The position numbers and the translations under genes are program-made. A DNA stretch of 64,000 bases from Herbidospora sakaeratensis (GTDB taxonomy: Bacteria > Actinomycetota > Actinomycetes > Streptosporangiales > Streptosporangiaceae). The notes beneath the pieces are model-generated. The model was given only the letters and a program-made list of their open reading frames with translations, did not search any database and was not told the DNA's origin. Positions 12,107 through 63,118 of this stretch are shown piece by piece. The stretch lies in contig NZ_BBXC01000014.1 in NCBI RefSeq assembly GCF_001570525.1, positions 83,458-147,457 of the forward strand, written 5' to 3'. The first letter of the stretch is position 1; each line of letters opens with the position of its first letter.

Positions 12107-12224
12107 GAATTGATTTTCGCGGAAATCAAACGCGTCGGCAAAGCTCGGCGATCAATGGCGAACGCCTTTTGCGCGGCGGCGTCGCGCCAATCGGCATGCG
12201 CGTATTCCGTATTGAAAGAAAAGG

Positions 12225-12297
12225 TGGCGGGTGTGGGAATCGAACCCACCCGGAACGGCGTATGAAACCGTCGAGCACACCAGCGCCCTCACCCGCC
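12225..12297 (-). tRNA. tRNA-like gene with CAU anticodon (Met/Ile2-like, aberrant)
   Basis: 73 nt fold into a full cloverleaf on the minus strand: acceptor GGCGGGT/ACCCGCC, a 4-bp D stem, anticodon stem ACGGT/GCCGT around the loop TTCATAC, a 5-nt variable loop, and T arm GTGGG-TTCGATT-CCCAC with canonical TTC. Anticodon CAU. Oddities: position 8 is G instead of U and position 14 is G instead of A, so the near-universal U8-A14 tertiary pair is absent. The 3' end reads ACC-T, with no encoded CCA. It may be a specialised or decaying tRNA, or a tRNA-Met or tRNA-Ile2 relative. Confidence 0.7.
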
Positions 12298-12642
12298 GGA
12301 AAGAGGAAAGCCGCCCCGGACCCGACGGTCAGACGCGGGCCTCAGAGGGCAGGGGCATTCGGCGCGTACGTCGCATGATGCCCCTTTCGCCGCCGATCGA
12401 CCGTATGGCGACGAGTATTCAAGATCGCGCCGACCGGACGCGACAGGTTTTCCCGACGCGCGTCAAGGCCGGCGCACCCGGCGTCGGGGCCCGGCAGCCC
12501 GCGTTTGCAGGCGACACCATCGGGCCATGGCTTGGATCGACGATGCCCGCAGGCGGGGATCACTCGGCGCATGGCAGGCCCTTCGAGCCGCCGAACAGGC
12601 CCTGGCCGACGTGCTGGCCATCCACATCTCCGTCGCCGCAGG
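12298..12642. other. intergenic, no convincing gene
   Basis: No ORF here looks coding. An inverted repeat with GGGGCAT/ATGCCCC arms and a loop of about 16 nt, followed by TTTC, lies near 12354-12382 and might serve as a terminator. The promoter of the tRNA-like gene should lie just above 12297. Confidence 0.4.
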
Positions 12643-56930: not shown

Positions 56931-57401
56931 ACGGCGACGGACGGTCGACGGTCCCCAGCATGCGACGAAGGTCGGCCCGTTCCCCGTTCGCCCTCGACTT
57001 CGGTGCCCGCGTCATGCCACCGGCCTCACCTAACGCAGCCACGGTGGAACAACGGCCTTGCGGGAGCCGGACTCGTGGAAATCGGAGCGAGATTGGCTCC
57101 CGATTGGCTCCCCGAGATTGAAGCCTTGACCTTCTACGGCTCATTCCCGCCGGGTCCGTCTTGCAGCAGCGGAGCCCTTCGCCGGAAGAGAGCGACCCGG
57201 AGCGACAGCGACGCGGGGCACTGACGCGGGGCAGCGAGGCGGATCGTCGCGTGCGGAGAGCAGGCTGCGGCACCGGGCGTTGCGGCTCATTCAAACACGC
57301 GGAAAATAACCCAATTGATTGCGTTTTGCGCTCACAGACGCAGGGATAGGAACGTGCCCACCTCGGGTATAAGGCGCATAATAGCGCGACGGGGGTGCTC
57401 G
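56931..57401. other. intergenic with a partial dispersed repeat
   Basis: No gene seen. 57166-57225 (GCGGAGCCCTTCGCCGGAAG..., CCGGAGCGACAGCGACG) is a fragment of the GAGCGAAGCGAG-type repeat found near the tRNAs. The last ~120 bp are AT-richer and probably contain the promoter of the serine hydrolase. Confidence 0.5.
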
Positions 57402-59264
57402 GTGAGTAACGTCACTCGGTGGGATCTCAATTACGATCAGTTCCGTGATGCCTACAAGCATTACGTCGAAACCCTGGGCCTGCGAATCGTGGACGTCTGC
57501 GGCTACGAGATCGCCGGAAAGGCGTATTACGCGGGTATCTGGGAAAGCGGATCAGGCCCCGAGCGGTGGACGGACCATTCGATTCCCTTCGCGAACTATC
57601 TGACCGTCTACAATCAGCGCAAAGCCGCTGGATACCGGCCTGTCATCGTCAACGGCTACAACGTCGGCACGAACGCCTACTTCGCCACCGTCTGGGAGAA
57701 GGAGAGGCGAGCGGGGCACCCGATGTGGACGTCGTTCCACGTCATCGGGCTCGCCGATCTCTACACACTCGTCTCGGACCACAGAAGAAACGGCTTCGTT
57801 CCCGTCGACATCAGCGGATACCGCCTGGAGAACAAACCTTTCTGCTCCGTCGTCTTCGAGGGGTGGCCCGGATACGACACCCGCTGGGACTGGATCAAGC
57901 CACAGGTGTCCGCCCTCAACTACCAGAACATCTTCGACGGAATGGACCACGACCACTACCGTCCGGTGCGCGTCATCGGGTTCAGCGTGCCGAATTCCGC
58001 CGGCGCCCATCACGACTATTTCACCTCGATCTGGCGACGCAGCATCGGACGGCCGTTCGCCACCCGGCACGGCATCGACGTCGCGACGTTCAAAGCCGAG
58101 GCCCAGCACTACGGTCGGGAGAAGTACCGGCTGGTGTCGGTCGGAGGATTCTCCGCCGGTCTCGGATCGGCCGCGGTCCAGCGGTTCTGCCCCGTCTGGG
58201 AGAAGCGTGAGGCCGCCCCGGTCATCGACGCCCTGGTCGAGAAGTTCATGAAGTTCCACGACGTGCCGGGGCTCTCGCTGGCGATCAGCATGAACGGGCG
58301 TCTGGTGCACGCTCAGGGGTACGGCGCGGCAGACCGGGTGACCGGCGAGAGGGTGACGACCGCGAGCCGGTTCCGGATCGCCAGCGTGGCCAAGCCGATC
58401 ACCTCCGCCGCCGTCATGAAACTCGTGGCGGAGAACCGTCTCACCACGATCGACCTGGTCTTCGGGGAAGACGGCCATCTGCGCGACTACGGCACGCCGG
58501 TCGACCCCCGGGCCAAGGACATCGTCGTCCAGCACCTGCTCCAGCACTCCTCCGGCGGCTGGCCCTACCTCCCCGACGATCCGATGTTCGCCAACACCTC
58601 CATGAACCACCGGCAGCTCATCTCCTGGGTGCTGGCCAACCGGTCGCTGAACCACGCTCCGGGCACGAACTACGCCTATTCCAACTTCGGCTACTGCGTG
58701 CTCGGCCGGGTCATCGAGGAGGTGACCGGTGAGTCGTACGAGTCCTACGTCCAGCGGGAGATCCTGGCTCCGTGCGGCATCCACGACATGGAACTGGCCG
58801 GCGACACCCTGGCCGACCGGCGTCCCGGCGAGGTCGTCTACTACGACCAGAACGGCCGGAACCCCTACGGCATCCCGGTGACCCGCATGGACGCGCACGG
58901 CGGCTGGCTGGCCACGGCAACCGATCTGCTGCGTTTCCTGGCAAGGGTCGACGGTTCCGCCACCCCACCCGACATCCTCGACCCCGCCCGGATCACGCAC
59001 ATGACCACGCCTTCAGGCCTGCCGAACTCGAACGGCTACGCCTGCGGCTGGGTGGTCAACGGCTCCAACTGGAGCCACACCGGAAACCTGTGGGGCAGCA
59101 GCTCCCTTCTGCAGCGAATCGGCGGATTCGGCGTGGCGATCCTGACCAACACGCTGTACCGAACGAACGACTCAGATCCGCTGGACACCAACAAGGGCAT
59201 CGCCGAACTGGTGGAAGCCATCCAAGACCACGTGGACCACTGGCCAGCAGGCACCCCTCTCTGA
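57402..59264 (+). CDS. serine hydrolase: tandem beta repeats + class C beta-lactamase-like domain
   Basis: 620 aa from GTG 57402 (GTG 57354 is possible). The N-terminal ~270 residues hold about five repeats of roughly 50 aa with the pattern 'G-Y-x-I/V-x-x-K-A/T-Y-Y/F-A-x-I/V-W/F' (CGYEIAGKAYYAGIWE, NGYNVGTNAYFATVWEK, SGYRLENKPFCSVVFEG, IGFSVPNSAGAHHDYFTSIW, GGFSAGLGSAAVQRFCPVWEK). These resemble the repeat domain of polyglycine hydrolases. The C-terminal domain is beta-lactamase/PBP4-like with S-V-A-K in FRIASVAKPIT, Tyr motif YAYSNFGYC and LQHSSGGW; the third motif is probably the HTG in WSHTGN. No signal peptide is evident. The target may be a peptide or glycine-rich polymer. Confidence 0.82.
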   Translation: MSNVTRWDLNYDQFRDAYKHYVETLGLRIVDVCGYEIAGKAYYAGIWESGSGPERWTDHSIPFANYLTVYNQRKAAGYRPVIVNGYNVGTNAYFATVWEKERRAGHPMWTSFHVIGLADLYTLVSDHRRNGFVPVDISGYRLENKPFCSVVFEGWPGYDTRWDWIKPQVSALNYQNIFDGMDHDHYRPVRVIGFSVPNSAGAHHDYFTSIWRRSIGRPFATRHGIDVATFKAEAQHYGREKYRLVSVGGFSAGLGSAAVQRFCPVWEKREAAPVIDALVEKFMKFHDVPGLSLAISMNGRLVHAQGYGAADRVTGERVTTASRFRIASVAKPITSAAVMKLVAENRLTTIDLVFGEDGHLRDYGTPVDPRAKDIVVQHLLQHSSGGWPYLPDDPMFANTSMNHRQLISWVLANRSLNHAPGTNYAYSNFGYCVLGRVIEEVTGESYESYVQREILAPCGIHDMELAGDTLADRRPGEVVYYDQNGRNPYGIPVTRMDAHGGWLATATDLLRFLARVDGSATPPDILDPARITHMTTPSGLPNSNGYACGWVVNGSNWSHTGNLWGSSSLLQRIGGFGVAILTNTLYRTNDSDPLDTNKGIAELVEAIQDHVDHWPAGTPL

Positions 59265-59315: not shown

Positions 59316-59480
59316 GAGCGCGAGGGGGCGACAGCCCCTTCGCATCGGAGGGCTCGGGGGGTCGTCCCCCCGTGTAAACGACGAAGGAGACCCGGGGAAA
59401 GCGGCGAAGCCGCTGACCACAGGTCTCCCTCTCCAGAGTGGGCGATACTGGGATCGAACCAGTGACCTCTTCGGTGTGAA
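59316..59480. repeat. 165-bp direct repeat, left copy (att-like, with tRNA-Val 3' half)
   Basis: Identical to 62924-63088 except for one base, offset 3608 bp. It includes the hairpin CGGGGGG-TCGT-CCCCCCG and, from 59439 on, the 3' half of tRNA-Val(CAC): acceptor strand, T arm and anticodon loop with GTG (CAC on minus). After the anticodon loop the sequence diverges into unrelated DNA, so this copy cannot make a tRNA. Confidence 0.9.
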
Positions 59481-59485
59481 GGAAG
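59439..59485 (-). pseudogene. tRNA-Val (CAC) 3'-half fragment
   Basis: Matches positions 63047-63093 of the intact tRNA-Val(CAC) with one change (59481). The D arm and 5' acceptor strand are absent. Typical of an attachment site left by insertion into, or duplication of, a tRNA gene. Confidence 0.85.
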
Positions 59486-59745
59486 ACCAGCCCGTCTGAG
59501 GACGTCGATGGGAGTCGATCGGGTGGCCTCTCACCTGGGAGAAGACTCCGGTGGGGTCATCGAGAGTTTGATGGAGTCTTAAGAGAGTGGCTCCCGAGGA
59601 TGGCTCTGGGGTTCTTCCTCTGACCTACTCACCAACGCTGATGCGGGTCATCGATTCCGACTGTCCCAGCGGGGCGAGACCTAGAATTTCGAGTAAGACG
59701 GCCAGCGAGACTGGCGTCGCAGGTCGTGAAGGAGAAGCGCCCAAT

Positions 59746-59922
59746 TCACGATCGATGACGGCTGAGCAGGTTCCAAAGGTAGGCGAACGTGACGCCACCG
59801 GAGGTCAGACCGGCCACCAGAGCCAGCGGCCAGGCGACCCCACCGGCGGCGGTGAGACCACCTATCACCGCAATTGCGATCACTGTGCCGACCAGCACGA
59901 GCAGAGCATCCCGTTCTTGCAT
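59746..59922 (-). CDS. 58-aa membrane protein with two helices
   Basis: ATG 59922 is preceded by AAGGGAG at 6-nt spacing, an excellent ribosome site. The product is MQERD, then two hydrophobic helices (ALLVLVGTVIAIAVIGGLTA and WPLALVAGLTSGGVTFAYLW) with a Gly-Gly turn and the basic tail NLLSRHRS. It is transcribed divergently from the HTH-coiled-coil-TIR gene 116 bp away, across overlapping TTGACA/TTGTCA -35-like elements (60005-60011). It could be a small toxic or anchoring membrane partner of that protein. No family recognised. The 260 bp to its left up to the tRNA fragment hold no gene I can support. Confidence 0.6.
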   Translation of the reverse strand: MQERDALLVLVGTVIAIAVIGGLTAAGGVAWPLALVAGLTSGGVTFAYLWNLLSRHRS

Positions 59923-60038
59923 TTCGGTCTCCCTTATGTGTCGATGCTCCATGAAGACACGAACGGGAACCGTTGCACTATCGGGAAACAGCCTGTTGCG
60001 ATGATTGACAACACTTCTTTCAGGTATCCGGGCTCCGT

Positions 60039-61415
60039 ATGCCCCACACTGAGACCGTGACATCCGCAGATCCGCCGGGGCCACGTGAGCCCGGCCAGTT
60101 ACAGCCGCTCTCTCCGCAACTGGACCATCGGGTCCACGCATTCGCCGATGCGCTGCGGCGGATCTTCCTCTCTCTCGACATGACTCTCGGCCAGTACGCG
60201 ATTCGACACCGGCGCAACAAGGCCGACGTGTCCCGATGGCTTTCCGGGAACAGAGTTCCCGAGCGGGCGATGGTGGACGAGATGCTGGCAGAGGCGACGC
60301 GGCGTTTGCATCATCCTGTGACGGATGAGGTCCGTTACCACATCCACAAACTACATGCGGCCGCGATCCTGGCCCAGGGGCCGTTGACCCAGAGGATCCA
60401 ATTACTCAGCGACGAGATGGATGGCGCGCTGACGGAACTCCAACAGGTCAAGGCCGAACGGAAGGACCTTCAGGACGCGCTCGGACATCGCAACCAACAG
60501 GTCCACGACCTCACAATACGTTCACGACAGCTGGAACAGGCATGGGCTTCCGAACGGGTCCGAACCCAAGGCGAGATGGACGATGCGGACGCGGAGATCA
60601 GGGAGTTGCACGCCCAGCGCAATCGTCTGGAGTCGGAGATCAAGACCCTCAAATCGCGACTCCGCCGCGCTCACGAGAACGAGGCGATACTAACCGAAAG
60701 GTGCCGCCAACTCGAACGAGAGCTCGAGGAACATGACAATCAGTCCGCTCCATCGACTCCGGCGAGCCCACTCACCCAGCCGGACGTCTCCCACCCACGA
60801 AGGGCACCTGGCCCCTATTTCTTCCTGAGCCACGCGGGAACACAAGCCGCCGACCCAGCCGAAGCCAAAAAAGCGAATCGATGGGTCATGAAATTATTCA
60901 AAGACATCTGCGACAACGTCCTCGAATACACCAACATCACCGACTTTTCGAAGGTCGGATATCTCAGTTTTTCCGATTGGACCGAAAGCACTTCGCATGC
61001 ATTGGAAACATGCCGGATCTTCGTCCCCCTCTATTCGCCACGACTTTTCGACAGCGAACGGTGCGGCAAAGAGTGGGCAGCGTTCGAAGCGCGTCTGCAT
61101 GCGATATCCGATGCCGAGAACCGTCCACCAGCCCTACTCCCGGCACTGTGGACACCAGCACCGCATGCGGATAGTCTGCCGAAGGTTGCGAGAGCCATTC
61201 AATTCTCCCATTCCCGCCTGGGCGTCATCTACCACGACCAGGGCTTCTACGGGTTGACCAAAACCCCGTCAAGGCGCGCACAGTACCAGCGAGCATCATT
61301 GGAGTTCGCGAAACGGATCGTGGAAATAGCTGAAAACGAGCCGAGCGTTCCGATCGGCGTACCGCTCGACTATGAGGCGCTCCCTAACGCTTTCCGTCGC
61401 GAACTCTCCGGCTAG
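60039..61415 (+). CDS. HTH-coiled-coil-TIR-like (FxsC-type) protein
   Basis: 458 aa from ATG 60039 (GTG 60057 possible). Residues ~30-80 contain an XRE-like HTH (MTLGQYAIRHRRNKADVSRW, LSGNRVPERAMVDEM). Residues ~115-235 are a long coiled coil (QLLSDEMDGALTELQQVKAE, AEIRELHAQRNRLESEIKTL). Residues ~258-440 are TIR-like: GPYFFLSHAGTQAADP, LSFSDWTESTSHALETCRIF, VPLYSPRLFDSERCGKEWAA (candidate catalytic Glu), LLPALWTPAP, and LGVIYHDQGFYGL. The TIR part resembles the FxsC proteins of the FxSxx-COOH peptide systems, but no radical-SAM FxsB or FxsA peptide is nearby. DNA-binding-like sensor plus TIR effector in a tRNA-bounded island suggests a defence or abortive-infection role (inference). Codon use is clearly less GC-biased than the neighbours. 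Confidence 0.8.
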   Translation: MPHTETVTSADPPGPREPGQLQPLSPQLDHRVHAFADALRRIFLSLDMTLGQYAIRHRRNKADVSRWLSGNRVPERAMVDEMLAEATRRLHHPVTDEVRYHIHKLHAAAILAQGPLTQRIQLLSDEMDGALTELQQVKAERKDLQDALGHRNQQVHDLTIRSRQLEQAWASERVRTQGEMDDADAEIRELHAQRNRLESEIKTLKSRLRRAHENEAILTERCRQLERELEEHDNQSAPSTPASPLTQPDVSHPRRAPGPYFFLSHAGTQAADPAEAKKANRWVMKLFKDICDNVLEYTNITDFSKVGYLSFSDWTESTSHALETCRIFVPLYSPRLFDSERCGKEWAAFEARLHAISDAENRPPALLPALWTPAPHADSLPKVARAIQFSHSRLGVIYHDQGFYGLTKTPSRRAQYQRASLEFAKRIVEIAENEPSVPIGVPLDYEALPNAFRRELSG

Positions 61416-61604
61416 TTTAGTCAGACATAAGATATTTACACTCCTGGCCTACAGTCCAGGATCATGCACATCTTTCTCGCAGGCGCATACGGGGCAGTGT
61501 GCGGCTCCAGTATGCCGACAAGTTAATTTCCGATCGCGCCAAACAGCAATCATGGAACTCCACAACGTCGAGTCAGTAGTTAAATCCACTAGTGGCATAC
61601 TCGT

Positions 61605-62100
61605 TCACGGACTGCTCGACGATAGCACCCCCTGTCGAGCCGAATTCCGATTCTTTTCGTAAACACTCAAGCGACTGACTCCCTCCGCAAGAATCATCCT
61701 GAGTCGTCGATATGGGACGATTCTTTGAATTAATAGAATGGACATCAGAACTAGTAGCCAAAATACAACTAGAATATAGACCCCTAAGCCACCGCCTCCA
61801 TGTATCGACTCGTAACAAGTGCTCCCACCACGAAAGGAAGGCCGACGCCCGCCCTGAACTCCGATTTCCCCGGGCCATGACAGTGTCGTCGCCACGTACG
61901 CGTCGCTCTTCGCCGGGTCATAGCGGTAGTGATGCTCAGGGTTGTCGGGCGTCGACAGCGATGAAACCAGCCGCAACCCGCCGCGCAAGAGGAATGCGCT
62001 GCGCAGGCCGGAGAGCAGTTCGAAGCCATTTCCTTGCCTCCGAACCTGTGACCGCGCGGACCAACGCCTTTGAGAGCACTTGCCATGAGCACTTCACGAC
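61605..62100 (-). pseudogene. membrane-protein remnant of unknown family
   Basis: A minus-strand frame reads GNGFELLSGLRSAFLLRGGL, RLVSSLSTPDNPEHHYRYDP, AKSDAYVATTLSWPGEIGVQ and a strong helix GVYILVVFWLLVLMSILLIQ followed by RIVPYRR. It looks protein-like but has only a TTG at 61988 as start. The neighbouring upstream frame (EVLMASALKGVGPRGHRFGGKEM) could be its displaced 5' part, so a frameshift around 62025 is possible. No family assigned. Confidence 0.35.
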
Positions 62101-62800
62101 CTCGTTCGAGCTGTGCCGGGCAGGGGGGATCTACGTGATTCGGCGAACGGTTCTCAGCAAGCAGGGACGCCTCGCTGAGTGCTACAGCGACGCGTGGACG
62201 GCAGGGCAGGCATTCCAGGTCTGGAGGGGCACTACTCGATGGTTCAGCTCACTGAAGGGCCGTCCGCGGAGGCGGTGCGGGCCGGGATCGGCCGAAGAGC
62301 CGCACACCTGGCGCGTGGCCGCCGGGTGAGAGTCGTTGGACCCGTGAAGAAGAGCTGAACCATCAGATCTGCAAAGCGATCTGTTCACCTGCAGCCTTGT
62401 CGTTGGCCCCGACCTTGAACCGGTCGCCTGGAGCCTAGATCTCAGCGGGCCCCAGGGGATGTCCGTCGTGAGAGGGCATGAGGCGCCTCCTCGAGAGAAG
62501 CGGCGTTCTCTGTGGCTTCAGTTCGAGATCTCCCATGAGATCACGTAAGCCTCGCAGAACAGCAACGTGTGATCCATTGCAAGAAGCCATGTGTCTTGGC
62601 ATCGCCGGAGACATTGATCGACTCCGAGTAATGGTGGATGGTGTTCAACTAGGGACTCAGGAGATCAGAGTGGTCGTCCTACCCCACATCAGGCTGAGTG
62701 GTCGATCGGGCTCTGCGAACGGATGTCCCTAGCCGTGACATCCATAAGGAGCCCTTCGCCGGCAAGTTCCAACGCATGAGGCGAAGCGATTGGATTCCCC

Positions 62801-62876
62801 GAGCGGAGCGAGCACCCCCCGAGCGAAGCGAGGCCTGCCCAGGGAGCGCGAGGGGCGAAGCCCTTCGCCAGGAGCG
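62801..62876. repeat. dispersed GAGCGAAGCGAG-type repeat
   Basis: 76 bp closely matching 37235-37311 (block GAGCGAAGCGAGGCC..., ...GAGCGCGAGGGGCGAAGCCC). The element continues without break into the 165-bp direct repeat that ends in tRNA-Val(CAC), giving the same order repeat-hairpin-tRNA as at 37.2-37.5 kb. Confidence 0.8.
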
Positions 62877-62923
62877 AGAGCGACCCGGAGCGAAGCGACG
62901 CAGGGCCGCAAAGCGGCCAGGGG

Positions 62924-63088
62924 GAGCGCGAGGGGGCGACAGCCCCTTCGCATCGGGGGGCTCGGGGGGTCGTCCCCCCGTGTAAACGACGAAGGAGACC
63001 CGGGGAAAGCGGCGAAGCCGCTGACCACAGGTCTCCCTCTCCAGAGTGGGCGATACTGGGATCGAACCAGTGACCTCTTCGGTGTGAA
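62924..63088. repeat. 165-bp direct repeat, right copy (within intact tRNA-Val locus)
   Basis: Partner of 59316-59480 (one mismatch). Here it covers the region downstream of tRNA-Val(CAC) plus the tRNA's 3' half, and the tRNA is completed to its 5' end at 63118. Confidence 0.9.
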
Positions 63089-63118
63089 CGAAGCGCTCTC
63101 CCGCTGAGCTAATCGCCC
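63047..63118 (-). tRNA. tRNA-Val (CAC)
   Basis: Full cloverleaf: acceptor GGGCGAT/ATCGCCC, D arm GCTC...GAGC, anticodon arm CTTCG-TTCACAC-CGAAG (CAC) and T arm ACTGG-TTCGATC-CCAGT. Discriminator A; CCA not encoded. Serves as the right boundary of the island. Confidence 0.95.

Follow-up and report, generated by a model that had tools for sequence, protein, structure and literature searches.

The window analysed here is the whole stretch of 64,000 nucleotides of Herbidospora sakaeratensis DNA, and the locus under study comprises two divergent genes in it. The minus strand encodes a small two-helix membrane protein of 58 aa (P0002; 59746..59922) with two hydrophobic segments, akin to the partner ORFs of two homologous loci (L203 and L080), and the plus strand encodes a protein of 458 aa (P0001; 60039..61415), whose start codon is uncertain. 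The latter comprises, all on the plus strand, an XRE-type helix-turn-helix (HTH) domain (residues about 30-112; 60126..60374), delineated by alignment A1, an AlphaFold2 model and Foldseek, a long coiled coil (residues about 115-232; 60381..60734), seen in the model and the alignment, which closes the constant module, and an exchanged part, the FxsC-type TIR domain (residues 259-432; 60813..61334), assigned by the family model NF040588, the predicted structure and PDB matches. The poor full-length alignment A4 was kept out of the modelling. The structural neighbours of the HTH found by Foldseek are all weak and include restriction controllers and antitoxins. The gap between the genes holds two operator-like sites, GTTGCACTATCGGGAAAC (site 1, 59972..59989) and GTTGCGATGATTGACAAC (site 2, 59995..60012), which lie 23 bp apart, both being imperfect copies with one mismatch to the consensus GTTGC-N8-GCAAC derived from 36 homologous upstream regions. 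Both genes, the HTH-coiled-coil-TIR protein and its divergent membrane partner, are real, as the initial annotation had it.

The TIR domain scores 151.7 bits with NF040588 (cut-off 130), and its predicted model matches TIR structures in the PDB with Z up to 11.0; a sequence search of the PDB with the domain gave chance-level matches only. The catalytic-type glutamate of the CGKEW motif (Glu345; 61071..61073, plus strand), whose position we equate with that of the catalytic Glu in known TIR NADases, is invariant in 16/16 aligned FxsC-type TIR domains and is retained in the model of the window TIR. Most other conserved positions of FxsC-type TIR domains are kept too, and the frame is open over 458 codons. 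The window TIR has two peculiarities: the loop that links the second strand to the conserved Trp is five residues shorter than in most of the other domains (six shorter relative to two aligned rows), and a Ser replaces the Asp kept by the other 15 aligned domains. The loop shortening and the loss of the Asp may alter the activity of the TIR domain, possibly by way of substrate access or assembly.

The GC content is 58.8% in 59501-62800, the stretch with the TIR gene pair, versus 69.6% in the whole window, and downstream of this stretch lies a tRNA-Val gene (63046-63118). In the six relatives from the genus, the match to the window in the area of the tRNA-Val gene starts at about 62740-62820 and continues onward, and no full-length match to the large protein is present in these six genomes. 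Low GC, the tRNA-flank matches in the relatives and the lack of a full-length large-protein match there fit a recent acquisition of the stretch. The ORF list, read by eye, contains nothing notable in 61416-62800.

A 185-bp direct repeat (59316-59500 and 62799-62983) flanks the stretch. It was considered as a specific attachment duplication and rejected, as it is mostly a dispersed repeat with many copies in all seven genus genomes; some of the dispersed matches reach into the tRNA-Val-like part, and the part of the repeat reaching into the tRNA may be an old attachment remnant. The tRNA-bounded island, initially taken as a defence-like setting, proved not to be general, and we rejected it as a family trait: a tRNA gene was found in 1/57 related loci scanned, many of which are short-flanked. 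Elsewhere in the window, a beta-lactamase-fold serine hydrolase-like gene (57315-59264, plus strand; assigned by eye) has repeated N-terminal units and 82% DNA relatives in two genus genomes, on contigs other than the one with the tRNA match, and ARAGORN reports a tRNA-like gene with an unassigned two-base anticodon at 12223-12298 (minus strand).

The initial annotation paired the membrane protein with the TIR gene, and we rejected TIR plus membrane protein as the conserved unit: in the 57 FxsC-type TIR loci (610,657 bases, 9048 ORFs), there were no matches to the profile of the HTH-coiled-coil module or to the four profiles of small membrane proteins (TM profiles) at E <= 0.01. That TIR homologues never occur with the small membrane gene, named beforehand as an observation against the pair, is true of the other TIR relatives in these loci; the pair as such stands, but with the HTH-coiled-coil half as the partner to which the membrane protein belongs. 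The genome of the window contains a second FxsC-type gene, with an FxsB gene at a distance of about 2 kb, and six matches to the FxsB model, none of them on the window's contig (C14). FxsB-type radical SAM matches above the cut-off are located on contigs C7 (462894-463976 and 480863-481933) and C11 (233514-234605) of this genome (G000). Since the 57 FxsC-type loci lack matches to the module and the TM profiles, and the other genomic FxsC is near FxsB, it was most likely the TIR domain that was captured by the module, and not the reverse.

As judged from the homologous loci, the conserved unit is an XRE-type HTH followed by a long coiled coil and accompanied by a small hydrophobic protein, the C-terminus of the large protein being exchangeable. 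With residues 16-251 of P0001 as the query, the module was found in 21/297 genomes of the same family (its own genome included), and the 20-row module profile A1 matched 11/394 genomes sampled across the class, 5/54 and 18/65 genomes of two genera of the same family, and 52/246 genomes of a genus from another family of the class (g85); these tallies come from overlapping genome sets and are lower bounds, as scoring covered only some of the first-look candidates. The module is also present in 15 plasmid records of Streptomycetaceae, 13 from Streptomyces and one each from Actinacidiphila and [Kitasatospora]. Deduplication by the core sequence reduced 153 matching ORFs from 163 loci to 115 genes, distinct by an 80-residue core, with near copies counted apart.

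This two-gene family of filamentous soil bacteria seemingly is undescribed. In Pfam, the module gave a weak match to HTH_31 in 11/20 members; NCBIfam has no family fitting it, and the searched libraries (Pfam, NCBIfam, PADLOC, PHROGs) contained no family for the module or for the small proteins. Searches of open-licence papers in PMC turned up no description of a pair of an HTH-coiled-coil and a small membrane protein. A search of PADLOC 2023 at E <= 1 gave 37 matches for P0001 and zero for P0002; the 25 of the 37 that were listed all cover the coiled coil, and among them there was no match to a PADLOC system protein beyond it. The phage record collection had no match to the module of L068 used as the query, and a scan of IMG/VR with one peptide pattern returned 18 stretches, none of which was confirmed as the module.

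A divergent small hydrophobic ORF, defined by hydropathy as an ORF of 35-130 aa starting 15-350 bp upstream, accompanies 51/115 module genes compared to 6/76 control genes from the same loci. The fraction differs between groups of module genes: 24/36 for genes scoring above 170 bits, 27/55 for other genes and 0/24 for genes of the response-regulator type. TM profiles (TM1, TM3, TM4, TM5), built from four visible groups of small proteins, matched a small gene no more than 500 bp upstream of the module gene in 69/115 loci, a count that is partly circular because the seeds of the profiles came from these loci; only two further matches (L166, L181) occur elsewhere in the loci. In the response-regulator branch, the TM-profile partner is co-directional with the large gene (13/24). 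Divergent ORFs by hydropathy and profile matches on either strand together give a partner in 79/115 cases, and in 36/115 no partner was detected. In three response-regulator-type plasmid copies (L237, at 1284-1502 and 1495-2580, and also L239 and L240), the co-directional small gene shares its last 8 nt with the beginning of the large gene, which suggests translational coupling.

Genes annotated by others in the plasmid records provide a check. Just upstream of the module, nine of 13 records examined out of 15 (H2, H3, H6-H10, H12, H14) have an annotated small CDS with a hydrophobic stretch, a hypothetical protein of 46-78 aa; 7/9 of these partners clearly match the TM1 or TM5 profile, some closely resembling the profile seeds (H6), and those of H2, H6 and H14 are below the hydropathy threshold used for the 115-gene count. 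Records H1 and H11 have no small CDS, H13 has a non-hydrophobic one, and in H15 the module match and a small CDS are about 760 bp apart. Codon comparison gave dN lower than dS in all 16 chosen pairs of small ORFs (dN/dS 0.06-0.32 in 15 and 0.42 in one). By its pattern of co-occurrence, the small gene belongs with the HTH-coiled-coil half and not with the TIR domain.

Several groups can be told apart among the small proteins, and in some of them there is just one hydrophobic segment. P0002 is closest to the 58-aa partners from L203 and L080, with 0/5000 segment-preserving shuffles reaching the score, and is not detectably related to that of L068 or to the TM4 type; its resemblance to SLATT_1 is sub-threshold (E 0.21). 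A profile built without P0002 finds it at E 0.01, and a profile built without P0002 and the L203 and L080 partners recovers none of these three ORFs; we therefore rejected the idea that all small proteins are one family, and the other groups may be unrelated to P0002. On the module tree (69 genes), the four TM labels require 6 changes compared to a shuffled mean of 30.1, with P0002, L203 and L080 labelled TM1, so that the true number of changes may exceed 6.

The most enriched pattern upstream of module genes, whether the group above 170 bits or the full set is taken, is the 18-bp dyad GTTGC-N8-GCAAC. In the former group, it occurs exactly in 29/36 upstream regions of 400 bp compared to 1/407 control blocks, and at least two sites with at most one mismatch occur in 19/36 regions compared to 1/407 control blocks. 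The spacings between successive sites are 22-23 or 33-35 bp in 18/22 cases, that is, about two or three DNA turns. In the distant group the exact dyad is rarer (8/79 upstream regions, 4/1065 control blocks), and the same half-sites form the arrangement GCAAC-N13/14-GCAAC in 22/79 regions versus 3/1065 control blocks. From the position and conservation of the sites, we infer that they are bound by the HTH of the module. All components of the family, that is, the module, the small hydrophobic upstream gene, sites of the GTTGC-N8-GCAAC type and an exchangeable C-terminus, are present at the window locus, and co-occurrence across genera together with the operator-like palindrome corroborates the original suggestion of a genuine pair with a shared regulatory gap.

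At least 50 residues follow the module in 110/115 genes (the five shorter ones were excluded), and by blastp clustering these C-termini form 36 clusters. Pfam, run on one representative each of 20/36 clusters and also on the window protein, gave matches in 13/20 clusters and none in seven. The named domains are PAS-GAF-SpoIIE (L203, with L080 in the same cluster), DnaA ATPase, DUF5753 (in L117, the single member tested of a three-member cluster), histidine-kinase-type ATPase and the response regulator receiver, and further LuxR (with a receiver just under the cut-off), DivIVA, pentapeptide repeats, WD40, and peptidase M23 with DUF3710. The largest cluster, 24/110, is of the response-regulator type; the FxsC-type TIR cluster holds the C-terminus of the window protein only (1/110), the FxsC model itself having been applied to the window protein and to ten representatives.

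The C-terminus of L182 combines TIR_2, NB-ARC and TPR domains and matches NF040586 (FxSxx_TPR) at 693.9 bits, so that, going by the domain content, the module has captured an FxSxx-system protein for a second time. The fusion gene spans L182:3569-6931 (plus strand), and its C-terminal cluster, in which L182 is the member tested, also includes L168, L197-L200 and L114. Further, the C-terminus of L190 (3660-4187, minus strand) is caspase-like, of the EACC1-associated type, with a score below the cut-off; as its module nests among response-regulator genes on the tree, this is likely a recent exchange.

Other C-termini were described by eye only, as helical repeats, trypsin-like, FHA-like or transmembrane. 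Pfam gave nothing for cluster 3 (trypsin-like) and for clusters 1, 2 and 7 (HEAT-like repeats), and both Pfam and NCBIfam gave nothing for the FHA-like C-terminus of L062. In L082, L083, L085 and L130 the C-terminus resembles a series of transmembrane helices, and L082 and L083 also have a small partner of the TM4 type. Two stronger statements about the exchange were rejected. The 26 changes of the C-terminus among 25 labels are close to their own minimum of 24 and do not demonstrate that it is swapped more often than the TM family; therefore we limit the claim to many types of C-termini on one module. A shared junction point was dropped because cutting every C-terminus where the profile match ends yields a shared junction by construction.

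Several known systems resemble the family in part. The window TIR is FxsC-type over the curated cut-off and L182 carries an FxSxx_TPR C-terminus, as in FxSxx-COOH systems (NF040588, NF040586); unlike these, the contig of the window has no FxsB, and the constant HTH-coiled-coil N-terminus and the small membrane partner are absent from the 57 FxsC-type loci. The XRE-DUF5753/DUF397 regulators, which we take to be WhiJ-like, also join an XRE-type HTH regulator to a small partner gene, and DUF5753 itself occurs in L117, but here there is a long coiled coil, a hydrophobic partner in place of DUF397, and no fixed C-terminus. From TIR effectors such as SPARTA TIR-APAZ, AbTir, SARM1 and plant TIRs, the window TIR differs in being fused to a DNA-binding module. 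The apparently shared palindromic operator-like region beside an HTH regulator is reminiscent of type II toxin-antitoxin loci. The EACC1 pair follows the same principle of constant and variable components with parts unrelated to those found here, EACC1 being the 5' gene of the caspase-type constant module (PMC7159879). Here, in contrast, the constant module is the HTH-coiled coil, and the pair is often divergent around palindromes. The caspase/cyclase constant N-terminus characteristic of the EACC1 two-gene system is not found in P0001, whose N-terminus is the HTH-coiled coil, and EACC1 appeared neither among the Pfam matches of P0002 nor in a tally covering 11 of the small partners; Pfam presumably holds an EACC1 model.

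We lean towards a self-regulated, membrane-linked two-gene switch, formed by a constant pair and an exchangeable output domain. The coiled coil would make the large protein a dimer or a larger assembly, and the HTH, bound to the phased palindromes, would hold both genes low. The small membrane protein would either dock the HTH-coiled-coil protein at the membrane or report a membrane event to it; upon a trigger, the protein would leave the DNA and/or cluster, and the C-terminal domain, an exchangeable output or sensor, would become active. In the window, clustered TIR domains would consume or convert NAD+ and stop the cell, perhaps as a defence against an invader. The steps are not equally secure. 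The anatomy and the modular pairing are nearly certain, and autoregulation through the palindromes is very probable. Enzymatic activity of the TIR domain has slightly better than even chances, and the chances are even that the small protein provides membrane docking or sensing.

A role in conflict or defence, as opposed to ordinary signalling, falls a little short of an even chance. The exchanged domains overlap with effector and scaffold domains of conflict systems of multicellular bacteria (PMC7159879). The defence-like character claimed initially is plausible given the exchanged domains, the low-GC setting and the plasmid copies; a link to phage records or PADLOC, in turn, was not found in our searches. 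The reading of the family as a hitherto unreported class of receptor-effector cassettes for general-purpose intracellular immunity or alarm in filamentous actinomycetes, with a constant, self-regulated DNA-and-membrane switch, phased palindromes and at least 12 recognisable plug-in output or sensor domains (36 clusters), two components of FxSxx systems among them, also falls a little short of an even chance.

The best-surviving alternative is that these proteins are membrane-linked transcription regulators of filamentous actinomycetes with domains shuffled for developmental or stress control, and that the TIR is a protein-interaction domain lacking enzyme activity. Sensory or regulatory types are frequent among the exchanged domains (response regulator, PAS-GAF-SpoIIE, histidine-kinase-type ATPase, LuxR, DUF5753, DivIVA); they are as compatible with ordinary signalling as with conflict, and with so many C-termini of this kind a role outside defence has to be taken seriously. 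The size of the response-regulator cluster and the shortened loop and lost Asp of the TIR domain agree with it as well. We still consider it rather unlikely, as the patchy distribution in the family, the plasmid copies, the low GC of the window stretch and the conflict-type C-termini, including FxSxx_TPR and FxsC, are less expected of such regulators.

Somewhat less likely again is a toxin-antitoxin-like arrangement, in which the small protein would be a pore-forming or depolarising toxin, the HTH-coiled coil its repressor and perhaps direct antagonist, and the C-terminus a sensor that ends the repression. The divergent genes around one operator-like region, the restriction controllers and antitoxins among the weak neighbours of the HTH, the hydrophobic hairpins rich in small residues, the many sensor-like C-termini and the SLATT_1 resemblance of P0002 are compatible with such a scheme. 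However, the small proteins fall into several groups, including ones with a single hydrophobic segment, the TIR and caspase-like C-termini resemble outputs, and a small gene that is co-directional with the large one and overlaps it, as in three of the response-regulator-type plasmid copies, is unusual for a repressed toxin. Finally, that the island is decaying and a stray FxsC-type fragment became fused there by accident with an HTH-coiled-coil gene, with no function, is improbable: it would account for the single FxsC-type C-terminus, the loop deletion, the imperfect palindromes and the unremarkable ORFs downstream, but not for the intact frame, the invariant Glu and most conserved positions, or the ribosome site of the partner gene.

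If the switch serves in conflict, the family amounts to a catalogue of the effectors that multicellular bacteria plug in, two of them captured from FxSxx systems; in the case of signalling, one constant membrane/DNA switch works with very different outputs. In either case, the N-terminal module profile, the palindrome and the tiny upstream gene provide a search handle for the family, whose members in plasmid records are annotated as response regulators, ATP-binding proteins or hypothetical proteins.
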